Assembly (NCBI GenBank): GCA_021806645.1
Contig: JAJZQX010000010.1
Location: forward strand, 1 to 64,000
Source of the DNA: Myxococcales bacterium
GTDB lineage: Bacteria > Myxococcota > Myxococcia > Myxococcales > Anaeromyxobacteraceae
DNA length: 64,000 bases
Direction of reading: 5' to 3'
The notes below the pieces were generated by a model. The model saw only the letters and a program-made list of their open reading frames with translations. It was not told the DNA's origin and did no database searches. Positions 35,115 to 42,907 of this stretch are shown one piece after another; positions within the stretch are counted from its first letter, which is position 1; every line of letters starts with the position of its first letter. Position numbers and translations under genes: made by a program.

Positions 35115-35969
35115 TCAGGGCCCTCTCGGACCCCGCCCGTCCACCACCACGCCCGTCCGCCCCTTGACCCGCACCGCCACCCAGTCCGGGTGGCGCCGGT
35201 TGTCGAGGTGGATCACCTCGCCCTGCACGCCGTCGGTCTCCAGCCGTGCCAGCAGCACGTCGAGCCGCTCCAGCTTCCGCGGCAGGTCTCCCTGCCCCAG
35301 TCGAATCTCCATGCCGTCGTCGCCGGCGTAGACCGTGGTCCCCAGCACCGGGTCGAGGTGCACCTCGGAGACCGCGGCGCGGCGGTCGAGCCCGCGCTCC
35401 CGCCAGCGCCCCAGCAGCCCCAGCGCGCTCCGCAGCCGGTGCTCCTCTCCGCCGTCGTCCCGCCGCGTCTCGAACGCCTCACGCTCCAGCCCGGTCACGA
35501 TCGGCAGGTCGAGGCCGTCGCCGGGGGCGGCCCGCTTGTAGACCTGCCCGGTGGCGTCGACGAGGTAGAGGCCGCCGAGATCGACCAGCGCCGCCGCCTG
35601 CCGCTCGGTCACCACCACCTCGAGCGCGGGAGGGAGCCGCCGCTCGATCTCCACGGTGGCCACCCAGGGGTTGCGCTTCAGGGCCCTGGCCATCGCCTCG
35701 GTGTCGGAGAAGAGCAGGTGGTCGCCGGGCCGGACGGGCGAGAGTTCCGCCAGCGCCGAGGCCGGGACCTGCGAGAGGCCGAGGTAGCGGATCTCGCGGA
35801 TGCGGAGCAGGTCGCCCCGCACGCCGTATTCCCAGGTGGCCCAGCCGGCCCCGGCGATGGCGGCGAGGGTGACCACGGTCGGGAGCAGGAGCGCCACGGC
35901 GCGGCGGAGACGGCGGGCCGTCTCGCCAGGTTGTCTCGCCGCCGTCCGCCGGTTGTTTCCCCGCGCCAC
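35115..35969 (-). CDS. ftsQ: Cell division protein FtsQ
   Basis: A 284-aa bitopic division protein. A basic cytoplasmic tail (RGNNRRTAARQ) is followed by one helix (AVALLLPTVVTLAAIAGAGW), a POTRA domain (LLRIREIRYLGLSQVPASAL and ALKRNPWVATVEIERRLPPA) and the FtsQ beta domain. GTG 35969 was chosen because GGGAG lies about 6 nt upstream and gives a normal length; the frame stays open further upstream. In most bacteria ftsQ follows ddl. Here the plus-strand cytochrome/redoxin block separates them, so this gene must have its own promoter in the 234-nt divergent spacer. Confidence 0.92.
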   Translation of the reverse strand: MARGNNRRTAARQPGETARRLRRAVALLLPTVVTLAAIAGAGWATWEYGVRGDLLRIREIRYLGLSQVPASALAELSPVRPGDHLLFSDTEAMARALKRNPWVATVEIERRLPPALEVVVTERQAAALVDLGGLYLVDATGQVYKRAAPGDGLDLPIVTGLEREAFETRRDDGGEEHRLRSALGLLGRWRERGLDRRAAVSEVHLDPVLGTTVYAGDDGMEIRLGQGDLPRKLERLDVLLARLETDGVQGEVIHLDNRRHPDWVAVRVKGRTGVVVDGRGPRGP

Positions 35970-36203
35970 CCGCCGCTCCCGGCCCGGAGGGCGGCCGCGC
36001 TGCCGGCCGCTTCCAGGCGCTATCGCCCAGTGGCTCACCTTGCCGCAGAACCCCGACCTGTAAAGTTTTCGCCTGGTTCCCAGGAGGTCGAGGCGAGTCG
36101 CCGCGGCTTCCTCTCTTGACGGCCGGCGCGCGGCGGGCCAAGAGGTAACGATATCGGCCCCCGGCCGGACCCGCCCCGCGACTCGAATCGGAGCCTGGAC
36201 CTC

Positions 36204-36551
36204 ATGCGCCTCATCACCATCGCCCCCGCCGTCCTCACCTTGCTGCTGCTGCTGGCCGCGGTCCCCACCGGGGCCGGTGGCACGAGGCTGGCGCCGCTCC
36301 CCAGGGATCGGGCCACTGTGGTCCACGGCCCCTACGAACAGGGAGCCTGCGACACGTGCCACCAGCGGGCCGACGCCCGGGACCCGGGCCCCGCCAGGGT
36401 GGGCAACGAGACCTGCCTCGCCTGCCACGACGAGTTCGCCGGCACGGCGCCGGTCAGGCTCGGCAAGGGCAAGTCACATCCCTCGGGCAAGGCCACCTGC
36501 ACCGCCTGCCACAACCCGCACAACTCGAAGAAGAAGAAGCTGCTGCTGTGA
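36204..36551 (+). CDS. Periplasmic triheme c-type cytochrome
   Basis: A 115-aa exported cytochrome. The signal peptide is about residues 1-25 (ITIAPAVLTLLLLLAAVPTGA). Three heme sites (CDTCH, CLACH, CTACH) are spaced as in the paired-CXXCH family, and the C terminus is basic (SKKKKLLL). Its whole mature sequence parallels the first three heme sites of the next gene, with matching PYExGxC, CHxEFxG and CHNPHN segments. It is therefore a duplicate of that module. It is divergent from ftsQ and opens the plus-strand block inside the dcw cluster. Confidence 0.9.
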   Translation: MRLITIAPAVLTLLLLLAAVPTGAGGTRLAPLPRDRATVVHGPYEQGACDTCHQRADARDPGPARVGNETCLACHDEFAGTAPVRLGKGKSHPSGKATCTACHNPHNSKKKKLLL

Positions 36552-36745
36552 CCAGAGCGGTCGGTGCAGCGACCAGCTCGCGCAGACCGGACAATCATGG
36601 CGGTGCTGGCGGACAAGGCTTTTGTGGAGGCTGGTTGTCTTCGGTCAAGGCTCTCCGGGATCCCCATCGTAGGATTGCCCCACGCGGACCAACTTGGGAG
36701 GGGGCACCGGTGGAACGCGTGGAACTCCCCTCCGGAACGGACTCG

Positions 36746-37828
36746 ATGACGATGCGCCCATTGCGCCCTGCCTGGCTCCTCCTGTGGCCCGCCCTGCTCC
36801 TCACCACGCCGGCGCTCGCCGCGCCGCTCAAGACCGAGGTGATCAAGAGGGCGACGCGCCGGGGCCTCGCCGTGGCGCCGCTGCCGCCAGGACCCAACGT
36901 CAAGTGGTCCCATGCCCCGTACGAGGCCGGCGACTGCGCCATCTGCCACGAGCGGAACGACCGCGCCAACCCGGGCCCCATCTCCACCAGCGTCAACGAG
37001 AACTGCTACTCGTGCCACGAGGAGTTCAAGGGGATCATGGCGCGCAGGTTCAAGCACGTGCCGGCCGTGGAGGCCTGCACCAACTGCCACAACCCGCACA
37101 ACGCCACCGAGCGGAAGCTGCTGAGCGGCGAGATGGTCGAGATGTGCGTGGCCTGCCACAAGGGCATCAAGGACCAGATCGCCAACGCCAAGGTCCGGCA
37201 CGACGCCGTCTCCACCGGCGAGAAGTGCTCCAACTGCCACAACCCGCACGCCGCCAACATCGAGAAGCTGCTGATCCAGCTGCCCTTCGACCTGTGCGTC
37301 AAGTGCCACTCCAGGGACGGCATGATCGCCGGCGACGGCAAGCCGATGACCAACTTCAAGGCCTGGCTCGCCGACAACAAGGTCTGGCACGAGCCGGTCA
37401 AGGCCAAGGACTGCTCCGCCTGCCACCGCACCCACGGCGGCAGCAACTTCCGCCTGCTGGTGGCGCCGTACCCCCCGGCCTTCTACGCGCCTTACGAGAC
37501 CAAGGCCTACGCGCTCTGCTTCGGCTGCCACAACGACAAGGTGGTGTCGGTCCCCGAGACCACCACGCTGACCGGCTTCCGCGACGGCTCGCGCAACCTG
37601 CACTACGTCCACGTCCACAAGGAGCGCGGCCGCACCTGCCGCGCCTGCCACGAGGTCCACGCCTCCAAGCAGGCTCACCACATCCGCGAGGGCGTGCCCT
37701 ACGGCCCCAAGGGCTGGATGCTGAAGATCAACTACACCCGGACACCGACGGGCGGATCGTGCGCGAAGACCTGCCACGAGACCAAGTCGTACAACAACAA
37801 GACGCTCACCTCCTCGGCGCCGAAGTAG
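36746..37828 (+). CDS. Multiheme c-type cytochrome with ten heme-binding sites
   Basis: A 360-aa exported cytochrome. The signal peptide ends LLTTPALA. Nine CXXCH sites are present (CAICH at residue 64, then CYSCH, CTNCH, CVACH, CSNCH, CVKCH, CSACH, CFGCH, CRACH). A last site, CAKTCH at 339, has three residues between the cysteines, a rarer heme-attachment form. CHNPHN/CHRTH segments match doubled-CXXCH cytochromes. It would carry electrons through the periplasm or at the outer membrane. ATG 36746 has a second ATG two codons on. The 194-nt gap from the triheme gene includes a short hairpin. The redoxin/TPR genes follow immediately. Confidence 0.92.
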   Translation: MTMRPLRPAWLLLWPALLLTTPALAAPLKTEVIKRATRRGLAVAPLPPGPNVKWSHAPYEAGDCAICHERNDRANPGPISTSVNENCYSCHEEFKGIMARRFKHVPAVEACTNCHNPHNATERKLLSGEMVEMCVACHKGIKDQIANAKVRHDAVSTGEKCSNCHNPHAANIEKLLIQLPFDLCVKCHSRDGMIAGDGKPMTNFKAWLADNKVWHEPVKAKDCSACHRTHGGSNFRLLVAPYPPAFYAPYETKAYALCFGCHNDKVVSVPETTTLTGFRDGSRNLHYVHVHKERGRTCRACHEVHASKQAHHIREGVPYGPKGWMLKINYTRTPTGGSCAKTCHETKSYNNKTLTSSAPK

Positions 37829-37834
37829 GTCCGC

Positions 37835-38662
37835 GTGCCTACGCCCCGCCGGATCGTCGCCTGGGTGGTCGCCGGGGCACTGGCCGGTGCCGGCGTGCCC
37901 GCGGTCGCCCGGGGCTTCACCAACGTCGCGGTCGGCGAACGGCTCGACAACCCCAGGCTCCCGCTGCTCGGTGGCGGGAGCGCCCGGCTGCTCTCGCCCA
38001 GCTCGACGGTCAGCCTCTTCGTCTTCTTCCGGCCGGAGCAGGATCACTCGCTCGAGACGCTCAAGGCGCTGGTCGGGCTCCAGAAGGACCTGGCCGGCAA
38101 GCGGGTCCGGATGGTCGGCGTGGTCTCGGACAGCTGGCGGGCGGACCAGGTGCGGGCCACCGTGGCCGAGGCCGGCTTCACGGCGCCGGTGCTCATCGAC
38201 GTCAAGGACGCGCTCTACGGCGCCCTCGGCGTTCGGCTCCATCCGGTGGTCGGGCTGGCCGACCGGAACCAGAAGCTGGCCGCCTACGAGCACTTCCGGA
38301 AGATCAACTACACCGAGATCATCCGGGGGCGCATCAAGGTCATGCTGGGCGAGGCGACCGAGGCCGACATGGCCAAGGTGCTCGAGCCCGAGCAGGCGAC
38401 CTCCGGGTCGCCCCAGGCCAGCGCCCGGCGCCACTTCAACCTGGCCCGCATGCTCTGGGCGCGGAAGAACGCCGCCAAGGCCCTCGAGGTCGTCCGGCGC
38501 AGCCTCGCCATCGTCCCCACCGCGCCCGCCTACGCGCTGCAGGGCCAGATCACCGCCGCCGGCGGCGACTGCGAGGCCGCCAGGCTCCTCTTCGATCAGG
38601 CCCTGAAGATCGACCCCGCCGAGCCCGCCGCCATCCAGGGGCTGAAGGGCTGCGCCCGCTGA
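37835..38662 (+). CDS. Exported thioredoxin-fold/TPR protein, paralog 1
   Basis: A 275-aa secreted protein. The signal peptide is about residues 1-26 (VAWVVAGALAGAGVPAVARG). A redoxin/TlpA-like domain follows (about 35-190) and then two TPR-like repeats (about 205-275). Where thioredoxins have CXXC, it reads PEQDHSLETLK (EQDH 68-71), so no dithiol activity is expected. The C-terminal repeats carry GGDCEAA and a final LKGCAR, a cysteine pair shared with the two paralogs. It starts at GTG 37835, only 6 nt after the decaheme-type gene, so co-transcription is likely. Confidence 0.8.
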   Translation: MPTPRRIVAWVVAGALAGAGVPAVARGFTNVAVGERLDNPRLPLLGGGSARLLSPSSTVSLFVFFRPEQDHSLETLKALVGLQKDLAGKRVRMVGVVSDSWRADQVRATVAEAGFTAPVLIDVKDALYGALGVRLHPVVGLADRNQKLAAYEHFRKINYTEIIRGRIKVMLGEATEADMAKVLEPEQATSGSPQASARRHFNLARMLWARKNAAKALEVVRRSLAIVPTAPAYALQGQITAAGGDCEAARLLFDQALKIDPAEPAAIQGLKGCAR

Positions 38663-38709
38663 CGGGTCGGGGGGCGAGAGCCGTCAGGAACACCACCGGG
38701 AGGACACCC

Positions 38710-39534
38710 ATGCGCCGATGCCTCGCCCTCGCCCTCCTCGCCGCCGTGACCGGCCTCGCGGGGGCGCCCTTCGTGGCCCACGCCCACGCCGAGGTCGGCA
38801 CGCCCGTGCCCGGCGTCGAGCTGGCCTCGGTGAGCGGCGAGAAGGTCAAGCTCATCGACCCGAAGGCCAGGGTGAGCGTGCTGGTCTTCGTGAGGGCCGG
38901 CCAGGACCGGTCGCTCGAGGCGCTCAAGGCGATGGCCAGGTGCGAGAAGGCGCTCTCCGGCAGGCCGGTCCGGTTCCTCGGCGTGCTGCCGGGCGACACC
39001 ACTACCGACCAGGCCAGGGCCCTGGCGGCGGCCGCCGGCGTCAAGCTGCCGCTGCTCTTCGACGCCAAGGACGCGCTCTACGAGAGGCTGCTGGTGCGGG
39101 GCCACCCGGTCGTCTTCCTGGTCGACGCCAGGGCCAGGGTGGCCGGCTTCGAGCCCTACCGGCAGATCGACTACGGCGAGGTGATCACGGCGCGCATCCG
39201 CTTCCAGCTCGGGGAGATCGACCAGGCGGCGGTCGACCAGGTGGTGGAGCCCCAGCGCGGCTCCATGCCGGGCGACGACCCGAGGGACGTCTCCAACCGC
39301 GACGTCAACCTCGGTCGCCGCCAGCTCAAGATCGGGCAGTACGACAAGGCGATCGCCAGCGCGAACAAGGCCCTCGGCGTGGCCCCCAACCCAGGGGCCT
39401 TCGCCCTGCTCGGCGATGTAGCCGCCGCCAGGGGGGACTGCGCCGCCGCCCTGAAGCAGTACGAGCAAGCCCTCAAGCTCGACCCGCACGAGAAGCACGC
39501 CATCGAGGGACGGAAGGCCTGCGCCGGCAAGTAG
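38710..39534 (+). CDS. Exported thioredoxin-fold/TPR protein, paralog 2
   Basis: A 274-aa protein whose signal peptide ends around FVAHAHA. The redoxin-like domain (about 28-190) has RAGQDRSLEALK where CXXC would be (GQDR 64-67), and one Cys at 78 (MARCEKAL). Family-specific blocks are YRQIDYGEVI, MPGDDPRDVSNRDVNLGRRQL and a TPR ending DVAAARGDCAAALKQYEQAL and RKACAGK. GGGAGG lies before the ATG. It is much closer to paralog 3 than to paralog 1. I infer a structural or carrier role in the periplasm, not oxidoreductase activity. Confidence 0.8.
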   Translation: MRRCLALALLAAVTGLAGAPFVAHAHAEVGTPVPGVELASVSGEKVKLIDPKARVSVLVFVRAGQDRSLEALKAMARCEKALSGRPVRFLGVLPGDTTTDQARALAAAAGVKLPLLFDAKDALYERLLVRGHPVVFLVDARARVAGFEPYRQIDYGEVITARIRFQLGEIDQAAVDQVVEPQRGSMPGDDPRDVSNRDVNLGRRQLKIGQYDKAIASANKALGVAPNPGAFALLGDVAAARGDCAAALKQYEQALKLDPHEKHAIEGRKACAGK

Positions 39535-39591
39535 GCCCCACGCTGTTTTTCCAACCATCTGCCCGTTCGGGGTGCGATCATTCGCCGCGTC

Positions 39592-40413
39592 ATGAAGATC
39601 ACCTTCCGCCTAGCCGTCATCGCGGCGGCCGTCGTCCTGGCGGCCCCTTTCGCCGCCCAGGCTCACGCCGAGGCCGGCACCGCCATCGAGAACCTCGAGC
39701 TGAAGACCATCAACGGCGGCAAGCATTGGCTGCTCTCCTCGAAGGCCAAGGCCAACATCGTGGTCTTCTTCCGCACCGGCCAGGAGCGCTCCTTCGAAGC
39801 GCTCAAGATGCTGGCGACCTGCGAGAAGGAGCTGGCGGGCAAGCCGGTCCACTGGGTCGGCCTGGTCTCTTCCAGCGAGGTCCCGGCGGAGGTGCGGGAC
39901 CTGGTGACCAGGACCGGCATCGCCATGCCGGTGCTCGTCGATCAGGACGACAGGCTCTACGGGGCGCTGGGCATCCGGCTCCACCCCATGGTCGCCATCG
40001 CCGACGGCAAGTTCAAGCTGGTCACCATCGAGATGTACCGCCAGATCGACTACTGCGAGATCGTCAAGGGGCGCATCAAGGTGCTGCTGGGGGAGCTCGA
40101 CGCCGCCGGGATGGAGCTGGTGCTCAACCCGCCGATCGGGACCATGCCAGGCGACGACATCCGCGACGTGGCCCGGCGCGACGTCAACCTCGGCCGCATG
40201 CAGCTCAAGATCAAGCAGTACGACAAGGCCCTGGTCAGCGCCGGCAAGGCGCTGGAGAAGGCGCCCATGGGCTCGGCCTTCGCCCTCATCGGCGACGTCC
40301 ACGCCGCTCGCGGCGACTGCGCCGCCGCGGTGAAGCAGTACGACCAGGCGCTCAAGCTCGACCCCACCGAGAAGCACGCCCTGGCCGGCAAGATCGCCTG
40401 CGCGGGGAAGTAG
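39592..40413 (+). CDS. Exported thioredoxin-fold/TPR protein, paralog 3
   Basis: A 273-aa protein with signal peptide MKITFRLAVIAAAVVLAAPF and cleavage near AAQAHA. The redoxin-like domain has RTGQERSFEALK (GQER 63-66) instead of CXXC, a lone Cys77 (LATCEKEL), and YRQIDYCEIVKGRIK. The C terminus repeats the MPGDDIRDVARRDVNLGRMQ and GDCAAAVKQYDQALKL blocks of paralog 2. It lies 57 nt after paralog 2. Three successive copies after two cytochromes indicate duplication within one functional unit. Confidence 0.8.
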   Translation: MKITFRLAVIAAAVVLAAPFAAQAHAEAGTAIENLELKTINGGKHWLLSSKAKANIVVFFRTGQERSFEALKMLATCEKELAGKPVHWVGLVSSSEVPAEVRDLVTRTGIAMPVLVDQDDRLYGALGIRLHPMVAIADGKFKLVTIEMYRQIDYCEIVKGRIKVLLGELDAAGMELVLNPPIGTMPGDDIRDVARRDVNLGRMQLKIKQYDKALVSAGKALEKAPMGSAFALIGDVHAARGDCAAAVKQYDQALKLDPTEKHALAGKIACAGK

Positions 40414-40453
40414 CGGGCGACGGCGCTGGTCGGCGGGCGGGTTTCCGGCGGCT

Positions 40454-40487
40454 GGGAGCGGGAGCGGGGGCGGGGAGCGGGAGCGGT
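40454..40487 (+). repeat. GGGAGC-type G-rich tandem repeat
   Basis: Degenerate copies of GGGAGC/GGGGGC lie in the 183-nt spacer between the third redoxin/TPR gene and the HNH gene. At least four G runs on one strand could form a quadruplex. Confidence 0.6.
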
Positions 40488-40596
40488 GAGCGCAGCGGAG
40501 TCGGAGGCGGCGTGGTGCGCGAAATGGGCGTACCACCTGGGTTTCCTTCACTTCCACGACTCCGGAAATGTCAGACTCGCGTGCGACTGTACGTGA

Positions 40597-41895
40597 ATGT
40601 TCGCCACCGCAAACCCGATTCCCTCCTCGGCCGCGGCCTCGCACCACGCTGCGACCTCCCCTTCCCTCGAACTCCTCGAAGCCCGCCAGGCCCGCGACGG
40701 CCTGGCCACCCTGCTGCGCGCCGAGCGGACGACCGCGGCCGAGTTCCTGCTGGCCCTCTCCGACTTCGACCGGCGCCGCGGCTGGGAGCCGCTGGGCTTC
40801 GCGAGCCTGTTCGCGTTCCTGCACATCGAGCTGGGGCTGTCTAAGGGCGGTGCCTTCTTCCGGCAGACGGCCGCCCGCCTGCTCCAGCGCTTCCCCGAGG
40901 TCATCGGGCCTCTTCGCGACGGCCGCCTTTGCATCACGACGGTGGTGGAGTTGGCCAAGGTCCTGACCGAGGCGAACCGGGCCGAGGTGCTGCCCAGGTT
41001 CTACGGCTGCTCCTCCCAGGAGGCGAAGGAGGTGGTCGCTGCGTTGAATCCCATGGCAGCGCCCCCGCTGCGCGCCGTCGTGACGGCCCTGTCGGCGCCG
41101 AAGGCGGTCCTCCCAGCGGCGATGGTGGCGCAGACGGCGGGGCCCACGGCTGCGCCGGCGGCGGAACTCATGCCGGCTCCCGCCAGCGCTGAACCGGCAA
41201 CGGTTCAGTTGACTGAACCGCTCCTGACCCACCCCGCGAGGGACGTCGCGCGCCGCGACGACGTCGAACCGCTCACCGCCGACCTTCGCCGACTCCACAT
41301 CACCGTGGACGCGCAGTTCCTCAAGATGCTCGACACCGCCAGGGACGGCATCTCGCACAGCATCCCGGGCGCCAGCATGGAGCAGGTGCTGAAGGCCGCG
41401 CTCGAGCTCCTCCTCGAGAAGCAGGCCAGGGCTCGCGGGTTGGTCAAGAAGCCGCGCCAGGCGCTCGCGAACCCGAACACGGCGCCGACTGCCACCGCGA
41501 CCCCGACCCCGACCCCGACCGCGACTCCGACCGCGACTCCGACCGCGACCCCGACGCTGAGCGAGACGCCGGTCCAGGGCTTCGCCGATCCGCCTCATCG
41601 CCGCAGCGGTTCGCGTCAGCCCATCGCCGCGGCCGTGAAGCGCGCGGTCTGGCGACGCGACGGCGGCCGCTGCTCGTGGCCGCTCGACGGCGGCGGCGTT
41701 TGCGGCTCGACGCACCGGCTGGAGCTCGACCACGTGGTGCCCTGGGCGCGCGGTGGCGGTGACACGGCGGATGACCTCCGGATCGTGTGTCGCGCTCACA
41801 ACGCCCTGGCGGCGCGGCAGGCCTTCGGAGACCGGTGCGTGGCGAGGTACGGGGGACGATCGCGCCCGCGGGGCCCGGCAGGTGGCGCGTACTGA
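40597..41895 (+). CDS. HNH endonuclease-domain protein with TP-repeat linker
   Basis: A 432-aa protein. The N-terminal helical domain (about 25-150, ELLEARQARDGLATLLRAER and LRDGRLCITTVVELAKVLTE) resembles the DUF222-like part of HNH-repeat proteins. A Thr/Pro/Ala linker (about 300-325) is encoded by tandem repeats. The C-terminal HNH domain has DGGRCSWPL, LELDHVVPWARGGGDTADDLRIVCRAHN and conserved Cys residues. Such genes are often multicopy and may be mobile or defence-related; their biological role is poorly known. It ends the plus-strand block and is convergent with ddl. Confidence 0.82.
   Translation: MFATANPIPSSAAASHHAATSPSLELLEARQARDGLATLLRAERTTAAEFLLALSDFDRRRGWEPLGFASLFAFLHIELGLSKGGAFFRQTAARLLQRFPEVIGPLRDGRLCITTVVELAKVLTEANRAEVLPRFYGCSSQEAKEVVAALNPMAAPPLRAVVTALSAPKAVLPAAMVAQTAGPTAAPAAELMPAPASAEPATVQLTEPLLTHPARDVARRDDVEPLTADLRRLHITVDAQFLKMLDTARDGISHSIPGASMEQVLKAALELLLEKQARARGLVKKPRQALANPNTAPTATATPTPTPTATPTATPTATPTLSETPVQGFADPPHRRSGSRQPIAAAVKRAVWRRDGGRCSWPLDGGGVCGSTHRLELDHVVPWARGGGDTADDLRIVCRAHNALAARQAFGDRCVARYGGRSRPRGPAGGAY
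41190..41220 (+). repeat. Overlapping inverted repeats inside the HNH gene
   Basis: Three arms alternate: TGAACCG (41190-41196), CGGTTCAG (41201-41208) and CTGAACCG (41213-41220). The middle arm can pair perfectly with either neighbour across 4-nt loops, so two exclusive hairpins are possible. Confidence 0.7.
41493..41554 (+). repeat. GACCGCGACTCC/GACCCC tandem repeat (TP/TA linker)
   Basis: Imperfect 6- and 12-nt units encode the TPTPTATPTATPT linker between the helical and HNH domains. The unit length keeps frame when copy number changes. Confidence 0.75.
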
Positions 41896-41980
41896 CCACG
41901 ATACTGGCCCGCGGGGGCGGCACCAGCGTGGCCATCCGGGCCAGCTCGAGCGACTGCGTCGCGAGGTGACGGTCCGCGGC

Positions 41981-42907
<927 letters not shown>

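Follow-up and report, generated by a model that had tools for sequence, protein, structure and literature searches.

The 64,000-nucleotide stretch analyzed here (the window; positions 1 to 64,000 of contig JAJZQX010000010.1, Myxococcales bacterium, Anaeromyxobacteraceae) carries a decaheme c-type cytochrome gene followed directly by three tandem genes, termed T1, T2 and T3. Each of the three displays a predicted signal sequence, a thioredoxin domain that has lost its CXXC active site and two tetratricopeptide repeats (TPR). On sequence and fold evidence this thioredoxin-TPR (Trx-TPR) combination appears to be an undescribed two-domain family. The decaheme/Trx-TPR gene pair is common to at least three bacterial phyla, and within the sampled genomes Trx-TPR is exclusive to one decaheme family. 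The genomic partnership is well supported, and for the mechanism we infer that the T proteins may serve the decaheme as a dedicated periplasmic accessory without redox activity, with an apocytochrome holdase or assembly factor as the leading, still tentative, reading.

The decaheme gene (36746..37828, plus strand, 360 aa) shows nine CXXCH heme sites and one C-terminal CX3CH site (CAKTCH). T1 (37835..38662, plus strand) starts 6 bp past the decaheme stop codon and consists of a signal peptide, a Cys-less ResA/TlpA-type thioredoxin domain with the motif QDHS, and two TPRs. T2 (38710..39534) and T3 (39592..40413), both on the plus strand, have the same architecture with the motifs QDRS and QERS, and share 41–43% identity with T1. 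The signal peptides are signal-peptide-like N-terminal stretches judged by eye, not by a predictor, and would place the T proteins in the periplasm. T2 passes the AhpC-TSA Pfam cut-off and all three proteins match TPR models. The classical thioredoxin model PF00085 is unmatched in T1–T3 at E-values up to 1; AhpC-TSA/Redoxin is matched instead. An AlphaFold model of T3, built from 49 family members (mean predicted local distance difference test score, pLDDT, 93.2), displays a thioredoxin fold up to approximately residue 180 and then the TPR part, where helices 190–206, 210–223, 227–239 and 243–256 make up two TPRs and helix 261–271 is a capping helix. The top matches of this model among solved structures are to ResA (Foldseek probability 1.00, target TM-score ~0.87). 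The Pfam matches, the T3 model and the ResA fold matches bear out the initial annotation, which had read from the letters three tandem paralogs after a ten-heme cytochrome, each with a signal peptide, a TlpA-like fold and two TPRs. Its proposal that they are undescribed as a family also stands, in that family and structure searches found the fused protein covered by no Pfam, NCBIfam or PDB entry and literature searches on the Trx-TPR architecture gave no description. Viral relatives of the T fold are mainly ordinary redoxins or peroxidases.

The active-site replacement was followed in an alignment of the 49 family members, with residues numbered as in T3. CXXC is found in the mature protein of none of them, and the motif that replaces it is Q-[DE]-x-S. 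The alignment of T3 with the CXXC-bearing structure 3kcm_A pairs IVVFFRTGQERS with IVNFWATWCPPC, the cysteine positions falling at Q64 and S67; a second CXXC-bearing reference, the TlpA of locus L070, likewise places its cysteines there. The initial annotation was correct on the loss of CXXC, but its words for the replacement (EQDH, GQDR, GQER) start one residue early. The RxxQxxSxExLK segment it pointed out is invariant across T1, T2 and T3, and its view that these proteins are not CXXC oxidoreductases agrees with the alignment. Position 64 is Q in 44 of the 49 members, H in four and N in one; position 65 is acidic in 47, and position 61 carries R or K in every one of the 49. S67 and the cis-proline candidate P132 are invariant (49/49). 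E80 of ResA is the active-site Glu after CXXC; the matching position (column 70) is A, T, V, G or M in 49/49 and never Glu.

The active-site shell shows 3.27 bits of conservation versus 2.21 bits for the rest of the thioredoxin domain (p = 2e-4). Since few parts of the protein are as well conserved as the dead site, it appears to be under constraint and not decaying, and because there are 49 homologues, none with CXXC in the mature protein, the Trx-TPR observation is not a chance one. In a tree of the family T1 stands apart from T2/T3, and T1, T2 and T3 each group with positional counterparts in related genomes; therefore the triplication predates the closest sampled relatives of the window. 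The T2/T3 split would be younger than the T1 split, several deep branches of the tree being weak. Degenerate thioredoxin copies that hitch-hike without a specific role would be expected to show a sporadic distribution, as is seen here (19/195 Myxococcota genomes, some lineages having no T). However, besides the conservation of the dead site, the dN/dS ratio (nonsynonymous to synonymous substitution rates) is approximately 0.4–0.57 for T1–T3, a rough NG86 estimate between the window and L009, the orthology of the T paralogs is held across the genus, and the linkage to the decaheme is exclusive. Degenerate copies are thus highly improbable.

The conserved pocket could also be read as a binding site, with QxxS and the His-cis-Pro pair holding heme or a metal for the cytochrome. 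Metal binding is known in other thioredoxin-fold proteins (Sco), and the His next to the cis-proline and the Q and S at the cysteine positions are among the most conserved residues. However, there is no recognized heme or metal motif, and H131, which precedes P132, is present in 41/49 members and replaced by T, M, L, N or R in the other eight. A heme or metal carrier is an unlikely explanation.

Two further cysteine pairs are found. The pair noticed in the TPR part by the initial annotation is real: C243 is present in 47/49 members and C270 in 47/47 members having a residue there. In the thioredoxin part of the alignment C77 and C155 are both present in 29/49 members, both absent in 15 and mixed in five (covariation Fisher p = 3.5e-8, kinship ignored). 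From their pattern both pairs look like structural disulfides. If T were thiol-active through these other cysteines, the near invariance of C243/C270 and the joint presence of C77/C155 would be explained. However, C77/C155 is missing altogether from the 15 members. The C243/C270 pair is incomplete in L015 and L017, which have no C243, and wholly absent in genome G531, and the gene context is unchanged in these three. The pairs also lie at positions expected of structural disulfides and not of a dithiol active site. Thiol activity of this kind is quite improbable.

A pattern scan over 84,980 species genomes gave 14 Trx-TPR loci. All loci with enough upstream sequence show a decaheme of the same family directly upstream, except L022, which coincides with an orphan Trx-TPR copy of genome G048; the decaheme of G048 is found elsewhere in its genome. 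Whole-genome searches then covered 982 genomes in three groups: Myxococcota (195), the phylum of G195 (388) and the order of G197 (399). For Myxococcota a decaheme match was counted as strong above 400 bits, and weaker cytochrome matches, below 170 bits, were not taken as members of the family. In Myxococcota, Trx-TPR is found in 19/195 genomes and a strong decaheme match in 24/195, including all 19. The phylum of G195 gives 2/388 for each, in the identical two genomes, and the order of G197 gives 1/399 for each, in the identical genome. In total 22 genomes have both, five have the decaheme only, none has Trx-TPR only and 955 have neither (Fisher p = 1.7e-40, a value that overstates independence as the genomes are related; the pattern repeats in three groups). 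Thus the co-occurrence with cytochromes elsewhere that was anticipated by the initial annotation was found over the 982 genomes, but with one specific decaheme family and not with doubled-CXXCH cytochromes in general.

In 22/22 genomes that have both genes, they are neighbors on the same strand; across 25 measured loci the gap ranges from approximately −14 to +61 bp. Distances between decahemes follow distances between the adjacent T proteins (Spearman 0.60, 0/2000 permutations, species tree not controlled). Judging from this linkage, the T proteins probably bind the decaheme cytochrome. The decaheme can stand without Trx-TPR, because G031, G032 and G037, all Anaeromyxobacteraceae, keep it alone beside ddl in the dcw (cell-division/murein) cluster. 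The C-terminal CX3CH site is present in all aligned decahemes of the family, with or without Trx-TPR. Plasmid spread was rejected, as no match was found in 72,556 plasmid records. Orphan Trx-TPR copies apart from the decaheme are present at L072 (7542–8564), L074 (7050–7907), L071, L076 and L077; one lies near the cbb3 oxidase gene FixO and a heavy-metal ATPase, and another near 7- and 12-heme cytochromes.

As an apocytochrome holdase, T would work through both of its domains. The thioredoxin domain belongs to the ResA/CcmG type, which contacts apocytochrome c in the periplasm, and with CXXC turned to QxxS its groove next to the cis-proline (H131-P132 in T3) would bind polypeptide with no disulfide exchange. 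The TPR domain would offer a second binding surface, as in CcmI and NrfG for apocytochrome C-termini. Together the two domains would keep the ten-heme polypeptide unfolded, soluble and open to heme attachment, and the two Cys pairs would serve as structural disulfides. Peptide binding and the holdase role are suggested by analogy. This reading is favored for the following reasons. Apocytochrome is handled by proteins with the fold of the first domain. CcmG without thiols is still able to bind apocytochrome, and Cys-to-Ser CcmG retains low activity (PMC3601427). The TPRs of CcmI and NrfG bind the C-termini of apocytochromes, with aggregation suppressed by CcmI (PMC3884852). CnoX offers a further precedent, as a holdase that combines a thioredoxin fold with TPRs (PMC6282202). 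Finally, ResB/CcsA is a neighbor of the pair in G531, from the phylum of G195, in which an 11-heme cytochrome gene is followed on the same strand by decaheme, T, lipoprotein, ResB and CcsA in one run (L091, 5974–11660, minus strand). A TlpA-like protein that does carry CXXC comes after T in G163.

Several observations weigh against the holdase. ResB/CcsA is next door to the pair in only one genome, G531. The TPR matches are generic, and the CcmH/CycH model PF23914 gives 21.6 and 14.9 bits on T proteins versus a cut-off of 42. The genome of the window has a ResB-type System II with no CcmF match and G197 has CcmF (System I) with no ResB match, so the pair goes with more than one heme-ligation machine, and a tie to a single maturation system was rejected. 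In five genomes the decaheme, CX3CH site included, occurs without Trx-TPR. T is therefore not strictly required for maturation, and its role as a strictly required CX3CH maturation factor was also rejected.

The five genomes fit an electron-transfer accessory better than a maturation factor. T might thus be a docking scaffold that binds the folded decaheme, and the triheme cytochrome of the window, in the periplasm and aligns them as an electron bridge or holds them at an envelope complex. Three T paralogs beside two cytochromes in the window are consistent with this, as is a TPR protein of Tenderia, cotranscribed with three triheme cytochromes and proposed as a cytochrome aligner (PMC5371394). 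Further support comes from L091, L094, L095 and L096 (Verrucomicrobiota, Kiritimatiellota, Sphaerotilaceae), where the pair lies beside 11-heme and 4–5-heme cytochromes and NHL-propeller lipoproteins, together with a protein of ~660–780 aa that has no Pfam match where scanned and is a possible porin. By their gene content these clusters resemble the Uet complex; Uet contains the 11-heme UetJ, the tetraheme UetA, the NHL proteins UetHI and the porin UetC (PMC10734462). Because T is dispensable in five genomes and because of this Uet context, a scaffold is nearly as likely as the holdase, though itself doubtful. However, a scaffold role gives no reason for the first domain to be of the ResA-type fold and to conserve a dead active site, and in one genome the T gene is situated between those of the decaheme and of ResB/CcsA. 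Locus L019 is assigned to the Sphaerotilaceae, the family to which Leptothrix also belongs. In Leptothrix, one group bearing UetJ additionally encodes an unnamed decaheme that has no porin in its vicinity (PMC13386937); this decaheme may belong to the cytochrome family described here and is noted as a lead only.

The holdase and the scaffold both bear on substrate-specific handling of multiheme cytochromes. General heme-attachment systems are thought to recognize little besides CXXCH (PMC3601427), and how long multiheme wires are folded and placed in bacteria is largely unknown. A family that would have lost its redox chemistry and kept its docking groove, and that is never found in a sampled genome without the decaheme, would give a handle on such assembly or docking. 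Tentatively, T might represent a hitherto unrecognized type of periplasmic pseudo-thioredoxin chaperone, a cytochrome-specific protein in which an inactive ResA/CcmG-like domain is fused to TPRs. It would assemble or position one decaheme wire within an extracellular electron-transfer module that is as yet undescribed and has spread across phyla. In relatives of the metal-reducing Anaeromyxobacter, the pair also points to a candidate electron-transfer module.

The window is part of contig 33 of its source genome (4.14 Mb, 99% complete), which belongs to the Anaeromyxobacteraceae, with Anaeromyxobacter as the nearest named relatives. The module is situated within the dcw cluster, in the ftsQ-ddl interval (window 35115–42907), on the plus strand opposite to its neighbors. 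On the minus strand it is flanked, as read from the translations, by presumed ftsZ, ftsA and ftsQ genes at one end and by presumed ddl, murB, murC and murG genes at the other. The dcw site was viewed in L064, L065 and L082 as well, and only the decaheme is kept there in G031, G032 and G037. Upstream of the decaheme lies a triheme c-type cytochrome gene (36204..36551, plus strand, 115 aa, signal peptide; heme sites CDTCH, CLACH, CTACH), which corresponds to a shortened duplicate of the N-terminal part of the decaheme (BLASTP 43% over 91 aa, E-value = 7e-21). Similar 3-heme genes precede the decaheme in L009–L012, L018 and L020. An HNH-endonuclease-like gene (40597..41895, 432 aa, PF01844) is found between T3 and ddl; in L009 its site is taken by a different gene on the other strand. 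Promoter and terminator scans gave no matches, such scans being uninformative for a GC-rich genome.

Among known systems, MtrA/DmsE is the nearest to the decaheme. By profile its PDB relative is MtrA (6r2q_A, 95 bits), plus one weak match to another multiheme cytochrome, and MtrA 6r2q_A is the sole significant PDB fold match of the decaheme model (pLDDT 73; Foldseek E-value = 1.2e-5). However, the decaheme is below the cut-off of the DmsE-family model TIGR03508 (88 vs 192.2 bits) and its C-terminal CX3CH site is unusual. An MtrAB-type conduit in the same genome was rejected on the lack of an MtrB_PioB (MtrB-type porin) match, other porin types not being excluded. The Uet systems of Tenderia and Gallionella may be related to the 11-heme, tetraheme and NHL genes that adjoin the pair in Verrucomicrobiota, Kiritimatiellota and Sphaerotilaceae, and in Tenderia a TPR gene is situated amid triheme cytochrome genes (PMC5371394). 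However, Uet-like genes are not adjacent to the pair in Anaeromyxobacteraceae, including the window, and the Uet descriptions found mention no Trx-TPR protein.

CnoX (YbbN), a holdase with a thioredoxin fold followed by TPRs as in T, has in its E. coli form SXXC, with the first Cys lost, and is no oxidoreductase (PMC6282202). CnoX is a cytoplasmic protein with a classical thioredoxin domain, whereas T is exported, ResA-type, without a PF00085 match, and linked to a cytochrome. CcmI, NrfG and CycH resemble T as exported proteins with a TPR domain linked to c-type cytochromes, but T has a thioredoxin domain in front, shows no membrane domain and gives generic TPR matches only. ResA and CcmG share with the T proteins the TlpA/ResA fold, export and a position adjoining a c-type cytochrome, and canonical redoxins are present elsewhere in the genome of the window. 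The T proteins differ from them in that CXXC is changed to QxxS in all 49 members, a TPR domain is fused and the family is tied to a single cytochrome family.

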